A stretch of DNA of 64,000 nucleotides from Streptantibioticus cattleyicolor NRRL 8057 = DSM 46488. GTDB taxonomy: Bacteria; Actinomycetota; Actinomycetes; Streptomycetales; Streptomycetaceae. This document shows positions 19,676 to 26,285 of this stretch, one piece after another (the stretch's first letter is position 1; the number at the start of each line of letters is the position of its first letter). The notes beneath the pieces were generated by a model, which searched no databases, was not told where the DNA came from, and saw only the letters and a program-made list of their open reading frames with translations. The stretch lies in NCBI RefSeq assembly GCF_000240165.1, contig NC_017585.1:744001-808000 (forward strand), in the 5' to 3' direction. The translations under genes were made by a program, and so were the position numbers.

Positions 19676-20742
19676 TCACAGGGTGGGGTAGTCGGTGTAC
19701 CCCTTGTCGTCGCCGCCGTAGTAGGTCGCCCGGTCCGGTGTGTTGTAGGGTCCGCCGGCGCGCAGGCGGGCGGGGAGGTCGGGGTTGGCGAGGAAGAGCG
19801 CGCCGAACGACAGCATGTCGGCGGTGCCGTCCTCGACGAGTGACAGGGTGTCTTCGCCGGTGAAGCCCGGGGTGGCGGGGGCGGCGGGGTTGAGGATGAA
19901 GGTGCCGTGGAACTCCTTGCGCAGGACGTCGGTCAGGTCGCGGGAGCCTTCGACGAGGTGCAGATAGGCCAGGCCGAGGTCGTCGAGCCGGCGGACCAGG
20001 TGGGTGGAGACGGGCTCGGCGTCGGGCTCGTGGGTTCCGTTGTACGGGGTCCCGGGCGAGAGGCGCATCCCCGTCCGCCGCGCGCCGATGGCGGCGGAGA
20101 CGGCCGCGGCCACCTCCACGGCGAACCGGGCGCGGCCCTCCACCGAGCCGCCCCACTCGTCGGTGCGCAGGTTGGTGTTGGGGGCGAGGAACTGGTGGAT
20201 CAAGTAGCCGTAGGCGCCGTGCAGTCGACGCCGTCGAACCCCGCGTCGACGGCGTTGCGCGCGGCGGTGACGAAATCCGCGATCGTCTCACGCACTTCCC
20301 GCGAGGTCAGTTCACGCGGGGTGCGGAAGTCCCGCATCCCGTCCTTGGTGAACACCTGGCCGGGCGCGGCGACGGCCGACGGCGCGACGTGCGCCAGGCC
20401 GTCGGGCAGGAGGGCGGGGTCGCCGACCCTGCCGACGTGGGAGAGCTGGGCGAAGATCGTCCCGCCCTCGGCGTGCACGGCCTCGGTGACCCGGCGCCAG
20501 GCGGCGACCTGCCGCGCGGTGTGCAGCCCCGGGGTGTCCGGGAACCCCTGACCGACCACGGAGACCTGTGAGGACTCGGTGATGATCAAGCCCGCCGTGG
20601 CGCGTTGCGCGTAGTACTCGGCCATGGAGTCGGTGGCCGTGTTACCCGGTCCGTACGCCCGGGCACGTCCCATCGCGGGCATGACGATGCGGTTGCGCAG
20701 GCGGGTCCCCGCGAGGTCGATCGGGTCGAAAGCACTGGTCAC
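19676..20742 (-). pseudogene. old yellow enzyme (NADH:flavin oxidoreductase), single frameshift
   Basis: The 5' part, from a GTG at 20742 with GAGGAG upstream, reads FDPIDLAGTRLRNRIVMPAM to [14 protein letters not shown]. The 3' part, in another frame, resumes at [20 protein letters not shown] and runs to the end. In intact family members these join as a GFDGV-[E/D][13 protein letters not shown] segment. The DNA near 20222-20228 is exactly one base short of that, so a single-base deletion (real or from sequencing) breaks the gene. An intact protein would be an FMN enzyme of the OYE/NemA family reducing enones or nitro compounds with NADPH. The divergent MarR gene is its likely regulator. Confidence 0.8.
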
Positions 20743-20795
20743 AGCGGCTCCTCTCGGCTGCGGCGGGCACGGGTGCGGCACACCGCCAGCAATCA

Positions 20796-21209
20796 TTGGT
20801 CGGCCAACGGGTCTCCCGCCTGCACCGGCTGTCCGGCAGCCGGCTGCTGCGCCCCACCAGCCTCTGCTCCGGCCAGGAGTTCATGATGATGGCCCTGTGG
20901 GACGCGGGCCCGGTGCGCCAGTCCGAGCTGACGAAGATGCTCGACCTCGACCCGTCCACCGTGGCCCTGATGCTGCGGCGACTGGAGCAGAGCGGGCACG
21001 TCACACGCGAACGCGACCCGCACGACCGGCGGGTCCTGCTGGTCGAGGCATCGGCGGAGAGCTACGCCCTGCGCCCCCACGTCGCCAAGGCGTGGGGGCA
21101 GTTGAAGGAGCAGACGCTGAAGGGTCTGGACGAGGCCGAACGCGAGGAGTTCGCGCGGATCCTGTCGAAGGTGGAGAGGAACCTGGCGCAGCGGCCCGAC
21201 ACCCGGTGA
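20796..21209 (+). CDS. MarR-family regulator
   Basis: 137 residues. The winged helix reads RQSELTKMLDLDPSTVALMLRRLEQSGHVTRERDPHDRRVLLVEAS, clearly MarR. No ATG or GTG is available for the full N-terminal dimerisation helix; a TTG at 20796 is the first usable start and lacks a clear ribosome binding site. It is divergent from the OYE gene by 53 bases and probably regulates it. Confidence 0.82.
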   Translation: MVGQRVSRLHRLSGSRLLRPTSLCSGQEFMMMALWDAGPVRQSELTKMLDLDPSTVALMLRRLEQSGHVTRERDPHDRRVLLVEASAESYALRPHVAKAWGQLKEQTLKGLDEAEREEFARILSKVERNLAQRPDTR

Positions 21210-21242
21210 GCGCCCAGGAGTTGGCACCGGCCGCAGCCGCCG

Positions 21243-21992
21243 TCACGTCACGGCGTCGGCGACCATCGAGGCGGCCACGGCCAGCAGGACCACCGCGAAG
21301 ACGCGCTGCAACCGGGGCCCGGCGACCTTCGCGGCCACGCGCTTGCCGTCCCAGGCGCCCAGGATCGCGGCGGCGATGAACGGGCCGATCACCGCCCAGT
21401 CGAGCGAGGCGGCGGCGCCGCGGCGAGTGGCCAGCGAAGCCAGGGAGTTGGCGGTGATGACCAGCAGGCTGGTACCGACCGCCGCCTCCATCTCGAAGGC
21501 CAGGACGGTGACCAGGGCGGGGACGGCGAGGAAGCCGCCGCCCACACCGAGCAGCCCGGTCAGCGTGCCCAGTCCGGCACCGACCCCGGCCGCCCTGCCC
21601 GGCCGCACCTCACCGCTTCCACGGCGGGCGGTGCCGGCGGGCCGCAGCATGGTGACGGCGCACAGCACGGCTGTCATGGCGAAGGCGATGGTGAGGACGG
21701 CTTGGGGCACGTGGGCGGTGAGGGCTCCGGCGGCAGCCGCCGGGAGGATCCCGGCGGCTGCGAACGCCGCTCCGGCCTTCCACCGCACCGTCCCGGCCCG
21801 GGCGTGCGCGTACAGCGCGGTCACGGAGGTGACGGTGACGATGATCAGGCTGGCGGTGGTCGCCGCGGCGGGGGTGAAGCCGAGCAGGTAGATCAGCGCG
21901 GGCACCGCCAGCACACTTCCGCCGCCGCCGAGCGCGCCGAGCGCCAGGCCCACGACGGCCCCCGCGATCAGGGCCAGGATCAGCGCGGTCAC
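21243..21992 (-). CDS. TauE/SafE-family sulfite/sulfonate exporter
   Basis: 249 residues with about eight membrane helices. It contains the two repeat signatures of the family, GLALGALGGGGSVLAVPALIYLLG and TGLLGVGGGFLAVPALVTVL. TauE/SafE proteins export sulfite or organosulfonates. It lies 294 bases downstream of the persulfide dioxygenase gene on the same strand, which fits removal of sulfite produced by sulfide oxidation. The intervening stretch shows no convincing gene. Confidence 0.9.
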   Translation of the reverse strand: MTALILALIAGAVVGLALGALGGGGSVLAVPALIYLLGFTPAAATTASLIIVTVTSVTALYAHARAGTVRWKAGAAFAAAGILPAAAAGALTAHVPQAVLTIAFAMTAVLCAVTMLRPAGTARRGSGEVRPGRAAGVGAGLGTLTGLLGVGGGFLAVPALVTVLAFEMEAAVGTSLLVITANSLASLATRRGAAASLDWAVIGPFIAAAILGAWDGKRVAAKVAGPRLQRVFAVVLLAVAASMVADAVT

Positions 21993-22286
21993 GACATCCG
22001 CCCACGGTGCCGACCGCCGCCGGCCGCGTGGAGCCGGACGGCACGCCGCACGCCGTGCCGACGCCGCTCGCCCGGTATCGCGCCGGGGCCTATCGGCGCG
22101 AGGGCGAAGCGCTGCGCGCCGTGGAGCGTGCGGCCCGCCACTCGGGGGTCGTCCGGACGTCCGGCGGCAACGGTGGGGCCGTCGACGACTCGGGAGGGAT
22201 GGGCCTGTTCGAGGGCCGGGCGGCCGGAACCGTGGCGGGAGGACAGGGGGAACATCGCGTGCCTTCTGTGCGGGTGGGGCGGGGGT

Positions 22287-23651
22287 TCACGGCCGGGTGA
22301 CGCGCAGGCCCGCGTCGGCGGCGGCCTCGAAGGCGTCGTCGACGGCGACGACCTTCCGTCCGGCCGCGTCCAGCAGGGAGGCGGCGATCGCCGCGCGCAT
22401 ACCACCGGCGCAGTGCACCCACACCGTGCCGTCCGGCACCTCGCCGGAGCGGCCGTGCAGTTCGTGGAGCGGGATGTGCGCCGAGCCCTCGACGAAGCCG
22501 CCCGCGCGCTCGGAATCCCGGCGCACGTCGAGCACCACCACGTCCTCGCCGCGTTCGTACGCGTCGGCGAGGTCGGCGAAGCGGGCCCGGGGGAACGAGG
22601 CGAGGTGTTCGCCCTCGCGGACCCAGGTGACGGGATCCCCGGTGGCGGCGGCGGTCGGGCGGTCGATGCCGACCCGGGCCAACTCCCGCTGCGCGGCGGC
22701 GATCCGCTCGGGGGTCTCGGCGAGCAGGGTGACCGGCTTGCCCCACGGGATCAACCAGGCCAGATAGGTGGCCAGTTTGCCGGTGCCCTCGAAGTTGAAC
22801 GACCCGGCGACATGGCCGGCCGCGAAGGCGACCCGGCTGCGCAGGTCCACCACCCACTCGCCCGCCGCCAGCCGTTCGGCGATCCGCGCGGCGTCGGCGG
22901 GTTCGGGCGGGGTCAGGTCGACCGGCACGGGGCCGGCGGCGTTGGCCGGGCCCATGTGCGTGTAGTAGGCGGGGACGTCCTCCAGTCCGGCCAGGATCCG
23001 TTCGACGAAGGTGTCCACGTCCAGGGTGAGGGCGTCGTTGCCGGCGCGTTCCCTGCCGATCGTGGTCGCGTCGCCCTCGGCCTGCGAGGAGGAGCAGAAG
23101 CTGCCGAAGCCGTGCGTGGGCAGCACGGGCACCTCGTCGTCGAGGGTTGCCGCCAGCCGGTGGGCGGAGGCGTGCTGCGCGCGGGCCAGGTGCTCGGTCA
23201 GCCGCGGGTCCACCAGGTCCGGACGTCCCACGGTGCCGATCAGCAGCGAGCCGCCGGTGAAGGCCGCCACCGCGCGGCCGCCCTCCTCCAGCGCGTACGA
23301 GGTGTGGTGCGGGGTGTGGCCGGGGGTGGCGATCGCCCGCAGCACCAGGTCCTCGTCCACCTCGCGGATGTCGCCGTCGGTGACGGGGGTGCGGGCGAAG
23401 GAGACGTGGGCGTCGGCGGGGACCAGGTAGCGGGCGCCGGTCAGGCGGGCCAGTTCCAGCCCGCCGGTGACGTAGTCGTTGTGCAGGTGCGTCTCGGCCA
23501 CGTAGGCGATGCGCACCCCTCGCCGGGCGGCGAGGGCGATCACCTGGTCGACGTCGCGCGGCGGATCGATGGCGACCGCCGCCTTTCGGCCGCCGGCCAG
23601 GTAACTGCGGTTGCCCAGGCCCTCGAACTCCAGGGTGTCGATGAAGAACAC
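22287..23651 (-). CDS. persulfide dioxygenase-like MBL-fold protein with rhodanese domains
   Basis: 454 residues. The N-terminal metallo-beta-lactamase domain has THLHNDYVTGG (THxHxDH variant with Asn in place of the second His), ATPGHTPHHTSY and PTHGFGSFC, the pattern of ETHE1/PDO-type enzymes. Two rhodanese-like domains follow. The first (WVVDLRSRVAFAAGHVAGSFN) lacks an active-site Cys; the second ends in TVWVHCAGGMRAAIAASLL with a catalytic Cys. The product likely oxidises glutathione- or other low-molecular-weight persulfide to sulfite and moves sulfane sulfur. It is co-directional with the ABM-rhodanese gene upstream (54-base gap) and TauE downstream. Confidence 0.9.
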   Translation of the reverse strand: MFFIDTLEFEGLGNRSYLAGGRKAAVAIDPPRDVDQVIALAARRGVRIAYVAETHLHNDYVTGGLELARLTGARYLVPADAHVSFARTPVTDGDIREVDEDLVLRAIATPGHTPHHTSYALEEGGRAVAAFTGGSLLIGTVGRPDLVDPRLTEHLARAQHASAHRLAATLDDEVPVLPTHGFGSFCSSSQAEGDATTIGRERAGNDALTLDVDTFVERILAGLEDVPAYYTHMGPANAAGPVPVDLTPPEPADAARIAERLAAGEWVVDLRSRVAFAAGHVAGSFNFEGTGKLATYLAWLIPWGKPVTLLAETPERIAAAQRELARVGIDRPTAAATGDPVTWVREGEHLASFPRARFADLADAYERGEDVVVLDVRRDSERAGGFVEGSAHIPLHELHGRSGEVPDGTVWVHCAGGMRAAIAASLLDAAGRKVVAVDDAFEAAADAGLRVTRP

Positions 23652-23705
23652 GGGGTGGCTCCTTACGTTGTAGGTGGGTTGGTTTCCTTTCCGGGAAGGT
23701 CCGGC

Positions 23706-24380
23706 TCAGCGGGCGGCGGTTCCGGCGCCGTCGCCGTCGTCCACCGCGTCCTGGCGGCCGGGGCGGGTGACCGGCAGCCCTGCCGCCTCCCATGCCGCGA
23801 GGCCGCCCGCCACGTTGTGGACAAAGGACCGGCCCGCGCGGATCGCCTGCTCGCCGGCCCGCACACTGCGCGCGCCCGTGCGGCAGATGAAGGCCAGCGG
23901 GCCGCCGGGCAGTTCGGACAGCGAGGCCGGCAACGTGCCGAGCGCGGTGTGGACGGCGCCGGCCGGGTGACGCGCTGCCCATTCGTCGTCCTCGCGGACA
24001 TCGACCAGCGTGAGTTCCCCGGCCACGACGCGGCGGTGCGCCTCGGCCGGGGACAGGTCGGCGGGCGTGCGGGCGTCGTGCCGTGTGGCGGGCAGCACCG
24101 TCCGGATCGCCTCGTAGTTCGAGGCGTGGGCGACGGCTATCGTCTGCCCCATCATCGGGCAGACGTCCATCGCCTCCTCCCAGTGCGCGGTGGACTCCCA
24201 TTCCGCCACGTTGACCAGGGCGAACCTGCTGCCCGGGACGATCGTGCGGAACATGTACGTGCGGATGAAACCGGGTTGGGCCGCCATCACCTCGGCGGCG
24301 GCCTGCCAGGCGTCGAGATACGCCTCTTCCCTCTCCTCGTCGATCTCGATCGGAATGATCACGACGTGCCGGTTGTCCAT
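23706..24380 (-). CDS. ABM-domain / rhodanese fusion protein
   Basis: 224 residues from the ATG at 24380, preceded by AAGGGG. Residues 1-100 form an antibiotic-biosynthesis-monooxygenase (dimeric ferredoxin-like) domain with FIRTYMFRTIVPGSRFALVN and EWESTAHWEEAM. Residues 115-205 form a rhodanese domain with LTLVDVREDDEWAARHPAGAVH and the active-site loop FICRTGARS, Cys present. The fusion suggests sulfur transfer combined with a small oxygenase or heme/quinol-binding module. It is the first gene of the sulfide-handling operon. Confidence 0.88.
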   Translation of the reverse strand: MDNRHVVIIPIEIDEEREEAYLDAWQAAAEVMAAQPGFIRTYMFRTIVPGSRFALVNVAEWESTAHWEEAMDVCPMMGQTIAVAHASNYEAIRTVLPATRHDARTPADLSPAEAHRRVVAGELTLVDVREDDEWAARHPAGAVHTALGTLPASLSELPGGPLAFICRTGARSVRAGEQAIRAGRSFVHNVAGGLAAWEAAGLPVTRPGRQDAVDDGDGAGTAAR

Positions 24381-24421
24381 CTGCCGCCCCTTCTGCCAGG
24401 TAACGCGCTTGCGAACCGCAG

Positions 24422-24449
24422 GTACCAACTCCTCGCCAGGAGTCGGTAC
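24422..24449. promoter_or_regulatory. 12-bp inverted repeat upstream of the ABM-rhodanese gene
   Basis: Arms at 24422-24433 and 24438-24449 match at 11 of 12 positions with a 4-base loop. It lies 42 bases upstream of the start codon, so it may be an operator for a sulfide-responsive repressor or a stem-loop in the leader of the operon. Confidence 0.65.
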
Positions 24450-24497
24450 TTGCTGAGACGCAGCCTGCGCGCACGCGCTCAGGAGCGGCAATCAACC

Positions 24498-24512
24498 TTG
24501 CTGAAACAGCAA
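24498..24512. promoter_or_regulatory. short palindrome TTGCTG-AAA-CAGCAA
   Basis: A perfect 6-bp inverted repeat with a 3-base centre, between the sulfide operon and the ABC-F gene. It could be an operator for either direction. No regulator gene is adjacent. Confidence 0.5.
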
Positions 24513-24601
24513 ATCAGACCGCGGCCGACAGCTCCCCGGCCCCGGTGCCGTCACGCCGTAATTCGGCTGCGCCCGCCCGACGGCGCCGTTACCCTGGCCG
24601 C

Positions 24602-24625
24602 ATGTCTACACCCCGGATTTCCTAG
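24602..24625 (+). CDS. putative leader peptide MSTPRIS upstream of ABC-F gene
   Basis: An ATG at 24602 opens a 7-codon ORF ending in TAG, 58 bases before the ABC-F start. A -10-like TACCCT at 24590-24595 ends six bases before the ATG, which suggests a leaderless transcript. Short ribosome-stalling leaders are established regulators of antibiotic-resistance ABC-F genes in Gram-positive bacteria, so attenuation is plausible. Functionality is inference from position only. Confidence 0.5.
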   Translation: MSTPRIS

Positions 24626-24683
24626 CTGAGGACCCGCTTCCACGCCACCCGTGTGTCCTTGAGCTGTTCCGGAGTGTCATCAC

Positions 24684-26285
24684 ATGATCACCGTTCGCGG
24701 TGTCGACGTGCGTGTCGGCGCGCGTCTGTTGTTGTCCGATCTGTCGTTCCATGTCGCCCCGGGTGACCGTGTCGGTCTGGTGGGCCGTAACGGTGCCGGG
24801 AAGACGACGTTGCTCGACGTGCTGGCGGGCCGGTCGCGTCCGGCGGCGGGCGAGGTGCGGGCCACCGGGTCCGTGGGTCATCTGCCGCAGGATTCCCGGG
24901 CGGCCGATCCCGCGGTGACGGTCACCGACCGCGTCCTGTCGGCCCGGGGACTCGACCGGGCTGTCAAGGAGTTGCGCGCGGCCGAGGAGCGGATGGCCGC
25001 CGCTCCGGCCGGTGCGGCGCAGCGCCGGGCCATGGCGGCGTACGTGCGCGCGGAGGCCGCGTTCCAGGCCGCCGGGGGCTATCCGGCCGAGGCGGAGGCG
25101 GCCCGGGTCGCGGCCGGGCTCGGGCTGCCGCAGCGGGTGCTGGACCAGCCGCTCGGCACCCTCTCCGGCGGTCAGCGCCGCCGGGTGGAGCTGGCCCGCA
25201 TCCTCTTCGCCGACCACGGCACGCTGCTGCTGGACGAGCCCACCAACCACCTGGACGCCGACTCCGTCGCCTGGCTGCACACCTTCCTGGCCAGCCGTTC
25301 CGGCGGCCTGGTGATCGTCAGCCACGACACCGGGCTGCTGGCGCGGACCGTCAACCGGGTCTTCCACCTCGACCCGCGGCGCGCCGTGATCGACGTCCAC
25401 AACACCGGCTGGGACGCCTACCTCGCCCAGCGCGCCGCCGACGACCGGCGCCGCGCCCGGATGCGGGCCAACGCCGAACGCAAGGCCGCCGCGCTCCACG
25501 CCCAGGCCGACCGGGCACGGGCCAACGTGGCCACCGCGGTGGCCGCCAGGAACATGGCCCGCCGCGCCGACCGCATGCTGGCCGAGACCGAACCGGTGCG
25601 CCGCGCCGAGCGGACCGCCCGGATCCGGCTGCCCGAACCCGTACCGTGCGGCCGGATCCCGCTGGGCGCGGTCGCCCTCACCAAGTCCTACGGCGACCAC
25701 CGGGTGCTCGACGGCGTCGACCTCGCCGTGGACCGCGGCAGCCGGCTGGTCGTCCTGGGCCACAACGGCGCCGGCAAGACGACCCTGCTGCGTCTGCTGG
25801 CCGGCCACGAGACCCCCGACTCCGGCCGGGTGGTCGCCGGTCCGGGGCTGCGCCTGGGCTACTTCGCGCAGGAGCACGAGACGCTGCGGGCGGACCGTAC
25901 GGTGCGGGAGAACCTGGCGGTGGCCGCGCCGCGCCTGAGCGACCACGAGGTGCGGCAGGTGCTCGGCGCGTTCCTGTTCTCCGGGGACGACGCGGGGAAG
26001 CCTGCCGGGGTGCTCTCCGGCGGCGAGAAGACCCGGCTGGTGCTGGCCGGGCTGGTGCACTCCGGGGCCAACGTGCTGCTGCTGGACGAGCCGACCAACA
26101 ACCTCGACCCGGCCTCCCGGGACGAGGTGCTGGCGGCGATGGCCGGCTATCCGGGGGCGATCGTGCTGGTCAGCCACGACCCGGGGGCGATCGGGGCGCT
26201 GCGCCCGGACCGGGTGCTGCTGCTGCCGGGCGCCGACGAGGACGTGTGGAGCGAGGACTACCTGGAGCTGGTGCGGCCGGCCTGA
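24684..26285 (+). CDS. ABC-F family ATPase, ribosomal protection type
   Basis: 533 residues with two ATP-binding cassettes and no membrane helices. The first Walker A is GLVGRNGAGKTTLLDVLAG with signature TLSGGQRRRVELARIL and Walker B TLLLDEPTNHLD. The second is VLGHNGAGKTTLLRLLAG, signature VLSGGEKTRLVLAGL and Walker B VLLLDEPTNNLD. The linker between them is charged and helical (residues about 250-320). ABC-F proteins bind the ribosomal E site and dislodge antibiotics or assist translation. The leader ORF upstream suggests inducible resistance. Confidence 0.93.
   Translation: MITVRGVDVRVGARLLLSDLSFHVAPGDRVGLVGRNGAGKTTLLDVLAGRSRPAAGEVRATGSVGHLPQDSRAADPAVTVTDRVLSARGLDRAVKELRAAEERMAAAPAGAAQRRAMAAYVRAEAAFQAAGGYPAEAEAARVAAGLGLPQRVLDQPLGTLSGGQRRRVELARILFADHGTLLLDEPTNHLDADSVAWLHTFLASRSGGLVIVSHDTGLLARTVNRVFHLDPRRAVIDVHNTGWDAYLAQRAADDRRRARMRANAERKAAALHAQADRARANVATAVAARNMARRADRMLAETEPVRRAERTARIRLPEPVPCGRIPLGAVALTKSYGDHRVLDGVDLAVDRGSRLVVLGHNGAGKTTLLRLLAGHETPDSGRVVAGPGLRLGYFAQEHETLRADRTVRENLAVAAPRLSDHEVRQVLGAFLFSGDDAGKPAGVLSGGEKTRLVLAGLVHSGANVLLLDEPTNNLDPASRDEVLAAMAGYPGAIVLVSHDPGAIGALRPDRVLLLPGADEDVWSEDYLELVRPA

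Follow-up and report, generated by a model that had tools for sequence, protein, structure and literature searches.

In a 64-kb window (the whole stretch of DNA analysed, C1:744001-808000) of the Streptantibioticus cattleyicolor NRRL 8057 = DSM 46488 genome (8.1 Mb, two contigs), an antibiotic biosynthesis monooxygenase (ABM) domain is fused to a rhodanese. The gene for this fusion (ABM-Rhd) is followed on the same strand by genes for a metallo-β-lactamase (MBL) protein with two rhodanese stretches, resembling persulfide dioxygenases (PDO), and for a TauE/SafE-family exporter. What does an ABM-rhodanese fusion do among sulfur genes, and do the three genes form a system of their own? Rather than making up a new system, they vary a circuit that is already known. 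On balance, the comparisons favour the view that they are one lineage's rewired form of the Streptomyces sulfane-sulfur circuit, in which the fusion replaced the ordinary small rhodanese. The gene group lies on the megaplasmid pSCAT (NC_016113.1, 1.81 Mb), to which a 7.7-kb stretch around it is 100% identical. An earlier note on this DNA had placed the three genes in a row on one strand, and all of them were recovered there, on the minus strand (Table 1). The Asp-to-Gly change at the iron site, the probable rhodanese relic, and the upstream palindrome described below are additions to that note.

Gene content and distribution of the fusion

In Streptomyces coelicolor, the circuit comprises SCO0618 (PDO), SCO0619 (TauE), SCO0620 (CsoR), and SCO0621 (Rhod). 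According to the accessible part of the report, ScCsoR represses PDO, TauE, and Rhod and is released upon persulfidation, and Scpdo is co-transcribed with SctauE (PMC7533328). The circuit affects antibiotic production and sporulation in S. coelicolor. The window shares with it a PDO-like MBL-rhodanese gene adjoining a TauE gene, plus a rhodanese. Unlike the S. coelicolor circuit, it has the ABM fusion upstream instead of a plain rhodanese, a new palindrome, and no CsoR gene or operator; the separate small rhodanese gene of the CsoR circuit is missing from the window, where the fusion is found instead. The gene order reported for S. coelicolor is that of locus L143 (PDO, TauE, CsoR reversed, Rhd), an orthology that rests on gene order. 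At E 1e-60, the window PDO has relatives in 43 of 121 family genomes, the closest being 71-82% identical. This similarity, together with the control of sulfane sulfur by the same PDO-TauE-rhodanese set in S. coelicolor, bears out the sulfane-sulfur handling proposed earlier for the group.

For comparison, 20 ordinary loci were picked from the relatives of the window PDO, mostly its best matches. A CsoR gene was detected in 14 of them (L132 CsoR as query; one weak 41-aa match), and a small rhodanese gene lies between PDO and TauE in eight (L132, L134, L136, L138, L139, L141, L142, and L146). The cst operon of S. aureus, composed of TauE, CstR, CstA, CstB, and SQR (PMC5480029, available text), also combines a PDO-sulfurtransferase, a multidomain sulfurtransferase, and TauE. 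It differs from the window in having SQR and a CstR-type repressor, in a CstA that is not ABM-based, and in CstB-type proteins that keep the Asp ligand of the iron site. No ORF for SQR was found between or adjoining the three genes of the window, the rest of the genome not having been searched for SQR.

Frames containing both domains were seen in seven Streptomycetaceae species among the matches listed (13 of 161 loci profile-checked, all frames): that of the window, S. malaysiense (L008), S. rugosispiralis (L009), S. macrolidinus (L010), Streptomyces sp. NRRL S-340 (L011), S. longispororuber (L012), and, on a plasmid, Streptomyces sp. SAT1 (L161). By length, L005 and L094 represent the L010 contig again. 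The domain-architecture check thus agrees with the former description of the pairing as unusual. At E 1e-30, two of the 297 family genomes gave matches over both domains. The 396 genomes of the phylum yielded only the window's own; three of them passed E 1e-18, but two did so through the rhodanese by itself. In a species-level contig collection, both-domain matches were found in 5 of the best 80 loci; these are the best 80 of at least 595 stretches (at least 546 relatives), so that more distant fusions could be missed, and phyla other than that of the window were covered by the pattern scan of this collection only. Two of 72,556 plasmid records matched over both domains, one being pSCAT itself, and none of 50,697 phage records did. 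With the ABM half as query, relatives appeared in six further genomes of the 396, and a rhodanese was present in none of their frames. The combination of 'ABM domain' with 'rhodanese' gave no match in the literature searched, outside which most subscription papers lie; the accessible text of PMC11267869 names an antibiotic biosynthesis monooxygenase and a rhodanese as separate genes.

A PDO gene stands next to the fusion in six of the seven species and TauE in five. In S. malaysiense, the PDO gene enters unrelated sequence after ~31 codons (L008, 6943-7230), and the region preceding it is 98.4% identical to the SAT1 plasmid over 3.4 kb. The five complete fusion operons (window, L009, L010, L011, and L161) form a single clade, nested among ordinary circuits, both in the PDO tree (36 sequences, 0.998; sister L101/L132, 0.942) and in the TauE tree (27 sequences, 0.993; sister support 0.72).

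The rhodanese relic and the upstream control elements

The circuit of the sister locus L132 is of the ordinary kind, with a CsoR gene and two operators of the CsoR type. In its small rhodanese (L132:7033-7404), the ICRSG or VCRSG found elsewhere reads IWRSG, the active-site Cys having become Trp. The spacer between PDO and TauE in the five complete fusion operons measures 294 bp in the window, ~17 bp in L009, 138 bp in L010, 548 bp in L011, and 145 bp in L161. Against a profile of eight standalone rhodaneses from ordinary circuits, the L011 spacer scored 28.1 bits (E 1.8e-9), a value reached by 0 of 500 dinucleotide shuffles; its alignment runs from the start codon through a DVRE-like block, without the active-site loop. 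At the DNA level, three other spacers match that of L011, with 71.6% identity along 155 bp in the window (E 3e-13), 75% along 97 bp in L010 (E 5e-16), and 76% along 90 bp in L161 (E 2e-14). In addition, 20 of 20 bases at the beginning of the L161 relic agree with the beginning of the L138 rhodanese gene (E 2.7e-6). Because the L011 spacer is recognisable and the other three match it, these spacers probably derive from one ancestral small rhodanese gene that has been decaying in the fusion clade and was deleted in L009.

With L132 CsoR as query, no CsoR gene was detected in eight fusion-locus records or in the 64-kb window. Of the 20 ordinary loci, 15 have the CsoR-type site ATACC-N6-GGTAT (up to two mismatches) in the 300 bp preceding PDO (shuffled control 3.5%; PDO starts approximated in six loci); none of the seven fusion genes has it in the 300 bp upstream. 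Instead, an exact TTGC-N7-GCAA palindrome precedes each of the seven fusion genes at a distance of 110-195 bp from the start (shuffled control 5% at one mismatch). At up to one mismatch, it was found upstream of none of the 20 ordinary circuits; exact copies in the ordinary loci amount to 2 per 237,264 bp, or 0.0025 per 300 bp. The upstream regions of the fusion genes have mostly diverged outside the palindrome and a CAGGCTGCGT-like block. The palindrome is a candidate operator.

Several genes were considered as regulators of the operon and rejected. The MarR gene beside the group (20796-21209, plus strand) was set aside because no regulator is shared among the other fusion loci; it is convergent with TauE and adjoins a split flavin oxidoreductase gene, and its product has one cysteine. 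The other contig carries two CsoR-family genes, one beside a copper ATPase near a second PDO-like gene and one at C2:2704395; neither was linked to the operon, and C2:2704395 is far from the window. As separate observations, one pair of genome-wide sites of the palindrome adjoins a TetR/FAD-monooxygenase region, and in three of the seven species (L161:10647-11696, L008, and L010) a gene for a thioredoxin-reductase-like flavoprotein (CxxC) is divergent from the fusion, with the palindrome in between. This flavoprotein is closest to the solved 4ntd and to DepH-type dithiol oxidases.

Domains, active sites, and alternative roles

ABM-Rhd consists of an ABM domain (PF03992, residues 6-69, E 9.9e-9, 35.7 bits versus a gathering cut-off of 23.1) and a Rhodanese domain (PF00581, residues 110-200, E 4.4e-13, above the gathering score). 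The rhodanese has a six-residue active-site loop (CRTGARS with Cys166), and active loop and Cys166 recur in all seven fusions. Among these, identity to the window protein is 87-88% in the ABM half and 78-85% in the rhodanese half. Among solved proteins, the ABM half matched 2ril best (E 1.2e-21; profile of eight sequences). Like standalone ABM proteins of this kind, the fusions retain an Asn57/Trp61 pair, which is invariant in them and in four aligned standalone relatives; its spacing presumably recalls the catalytic Asn/Trp pair of ActVA-Orf6/SnoaB. They differ from the standalone proteins in Phe44 for the His of 'LHR', in a gained Cys74 that is invariant in all fusions (the standalone relatives have no Cys there), and in the added rhodanese.

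The earlier note had suggested a small dimeric oxygenase or cofactor-binding module that acts on sulfane sulfur. The present results do not demonstrate such a role for the ABM half, and its heme-ligand position is occupied by Thr80; catalysis would still be compatible with the kept Asn57/Trp61 pair and the invariant Cys74. A heme-degrading ABM of the IsdG/MhuD type was rejected accordingly, as the His of Rv3592 (3hx9), which we take to be the axial heme ligand of MhuD-type ABM proteins, aligns with that Thr80. No sulfur oxygenase reductase was present among the solved ABM relatives (17 at E 0.01), and this reading was likewise rejected. ABM proteins dimerise through their beta-barrel, and the fusion would thus present two rhodaneses and a pocket. 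Most likely, the ABM half makes the fusion a dimer and supplies a small binding pocket, and on the favoured reading ABM-Rhd is a probably dimeric sulfurtransferase that replaces the circuit rhodanese. AlphaFold models gave mean pLDDT values of 54.8 for ABM-Rhd and 39.5 for PDO, both too poor to use.

The PDO-like protein contains a Lactamase_B domain and two rhodanese stretches, the first without the loop Cys and the second with CAGGMR (Cys414). Its closest solved relative is the Alicyclobacillus MBL-rhodanese 3tp9 (residues 8-432, E 8.8e-57), the second 3r2u (E 1.8e-34), which is presumably CstB. At the iron site, both have FSGD whereas the window PDO has FTGG. By the motif rule for type III PDO given in the accessible part of PMC6060420, the protein has the layout of this type: an MBL domain is combined with a C-terminal rhodanese, THxHxD is present, and Tyr or Phe replaces the third His. 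The 2-His-1-Asp iron site is incomplete, with H55 and H112 present and G134 at the third ligand position; the ligands of hETHE1 are His79, His135, and Asp154 (PMC4383860, available text). In Acidithiobacillus caldus, a D130A variant was inactive, weak iron binding by two ligands being noted as well (PMC6060420, same part). With Gly134 in place of Asp154 and D130A inactive, neither dioxygenase activity nor sulfite as its exported product is a safe inference for the window group. Of the earlier assignment as a persulfide dioxygenase with two rhodanese domains and sulfite as product, the domain layout stands, but the dioxygenase and sulfite part lacks support in that form.

The glycine is not peculiar to the window. 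Among 36 distinct motif stretches from the collected loci, 34 have GG at the iron site and two (L064 and L136) GD, so that in this sample the MBL 'persulfide dioxygenases' of Streptomyces circuits mostly lack the ETHE1 Asp ligand, which points to a different metal site or different chemistry. For SCO0618 of S. coelicolor, O2-dependent persulfide oxidation to sulfite has been shown with GSSH, at 1.19 μmol O2/min/mg (PMC7533328), and the A. caldus enzyme has 111.5 U/mg under conditions other than those for SCO0618. A second GG-type MBL-rhodanese gene of the same genome (L092:5903-7768, C2 ~2.882 Mb) is 49% identical, with the match ending at residue 341; its active second rhodanese seems to be missing, and it is flanked by a rhodanese of two domains on one side and a copper-ATPase/CsoR pair on the other. 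The exporter belongs to PF01925 (E 3.7e-44).

Rather unlikely is the alternative that ABM-Rhd belongs to another pathway, of quinone, thiol-disulfide, or antibiotic chemistry, and shares only a promoter with the sulfur genes. L012, where PDO and TauE are missing nearby, would fit, as would the divergent flavoprotein of L008, L010, and L161; against this, PDO adjoins the fusion in six of seven species and TauE in five, and decay of the small rhodanese is confined to loci with the fusion and to the sister locus.

We also give little credence to a catalytic ABM half that acts as a cofactor-free oxygenase on sulfane sulfur from Cys166, perhaps via Cys74, and compensates for a PDO without its iron ligand. 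The invariance of Asn57/Trp61 in the fusions and the four standalone relatives, the fusion-specific Cys74, the better conservation of the ABM half relative to the rhodanese half, and the missing iron ligand all speak for it. However, the Asp-to-Gly PDO occurs in ordinary circuits without ABM too, the solved relatives include no sulfur oxygenase reductase, and the ABM substrates known to us are quinols, anthrones, and heme, not sulfur. Still less credible is a metal-free sulfur-oxidising ABM module (Cys166 persulfide via Cys74, Asn57/Trp61) with the MBL protein acting mainly as sulfurtransferase or carrier. Finally, a decaying plasmid passenger of little function is very improbable: the rhodanese relic, the L008 PDO broken after ~31 codons, and the lost iron ligand would suit it, but ABM-Rhd, PDO, and TauE remain intact, with 76-89% identity between species and no change at the active-site cysteines, and the palindrome is kept while the remaining upstream region diverges.

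Operon layout and the proposed rewired circuit

ABM-Rhd and PDO are separated by 54 bp, PDO and TauE by the 294 bp that contain the relic (Table 1), and the three genes are presumably co-transcribed. No terminator-like sites were found between them; a scan of all of 20700-24700 gave none either (0.7 expected in shuffles), which makes their absence weak evidence. The candidate promoter was missed by a consensus promoter scan. In the vicinity, an Oxidored_FMN gene (N-ethylmaleimide reductase-like, 20796-19676, minus strand) is split at ~20203 into an N part (20796-20203) and a C part (20203-19676) by a frameshift or sequence error, and an ABC-F gene of the ribosomal protection type (24684-26285, plus strand; 351.6 bits versus a cut-off of 380) is divergent from the operon.

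Table 1. Positions (window numbering) of the sulfur genes and of the candidate elements around them
Feature	Position	Strand	Remarks
ABM-rhodanese fusion (ABM-Rhd) gene	24380-23706	minus	224 aa; ABM 1-97, rhodanese ~105-205
MBL-rhodanese-rhodanese (PDO-like) gene, type III PDO layout	23651-22287	minus	454 aa, GTG start
TauE/SafE-family exporter gene	21992-21243	minus	249 aa, GTG start
Probable standalone-rhodanese relic; open frame without active-site loop	22255-21989	minus	DNA similarity to L011 spacer
Palindrome TTGCTGTTTCAGCAAG, candidate operator	24497-24512	minus	Same position class in 7/7 fusion genes
Candidate promoter TTGCCG, 18 bp, CAGGCT	24462-24491	minus	By eye; CAGGCT-like block conserved in fusion loci
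Second, imperfect inverted repeat between candidate promoter and start codon	24421-24450	minus	By eye; tentative, poorly conserved

In the ordinary circuit, the small rhodanese would move sulfane sulfur to or from the PDO-like protein, TauE would export the oxidised sulfur product, and CsoR would turn the set on as sulfane sulfur rises. In the fusion lineage, the PDO-TauE interval would have lost its small rhodanese to decay, and ABM-Rhd, first in the operon, may have taken over sulfur transfer, with Cys166 as the persulfide carrier to or from the PDO-like protein. TauE would still remove an anionic sulfur product. CsoR control would have been lost, and another regulator would act at TTGC-N7-GCAA in its place. 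Sulfurtransferase activity, dimerisation, and the identity of the exported product are predicted parts of this scheme.

Several observations weigh against a replacement of the ordinary rhodanese and its control. In L012, which carries both fusion and palindrome, the ~6 kb downstream contain neither PDO nor TauE, and the fusion can thus exist outside the circuit. At the protein level, the other spacers do not convince on their own: the window scored 4.1 bits (reached by 31 of 500 shuffles), L161 4.4 bits (9 of 500), and L010 2.0 bits (112 of 500). Support for the placement of the fusion near the circuit rhodaneses in the rhodanese tree is weak (0.55, 0.24, then 0.83). One of five fusion-to-PDO spacers, that of L010, carries a CsoR-like site with one mismatch. 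Genome-wide, the palindrome occurs at four sites with up to one mismatch versus two for the reversed control, which gives it no regulon backing, and no regulator gene common to the fusion loci was found. The seven fusion sequences are, moreover, closely related, and the palindromes upstream of all seven are therefore not seven independent events.

If the fusion did replace the small rhodanese, the operon would represent a natural swap experiment, in which an ordinary sulfurtransferase gene decays, a rare fusion substitutes for it, and the operon regulator changes. Exchanging the ABM-rhodanese and the ordinary Rhod would then be a direct test of its function.

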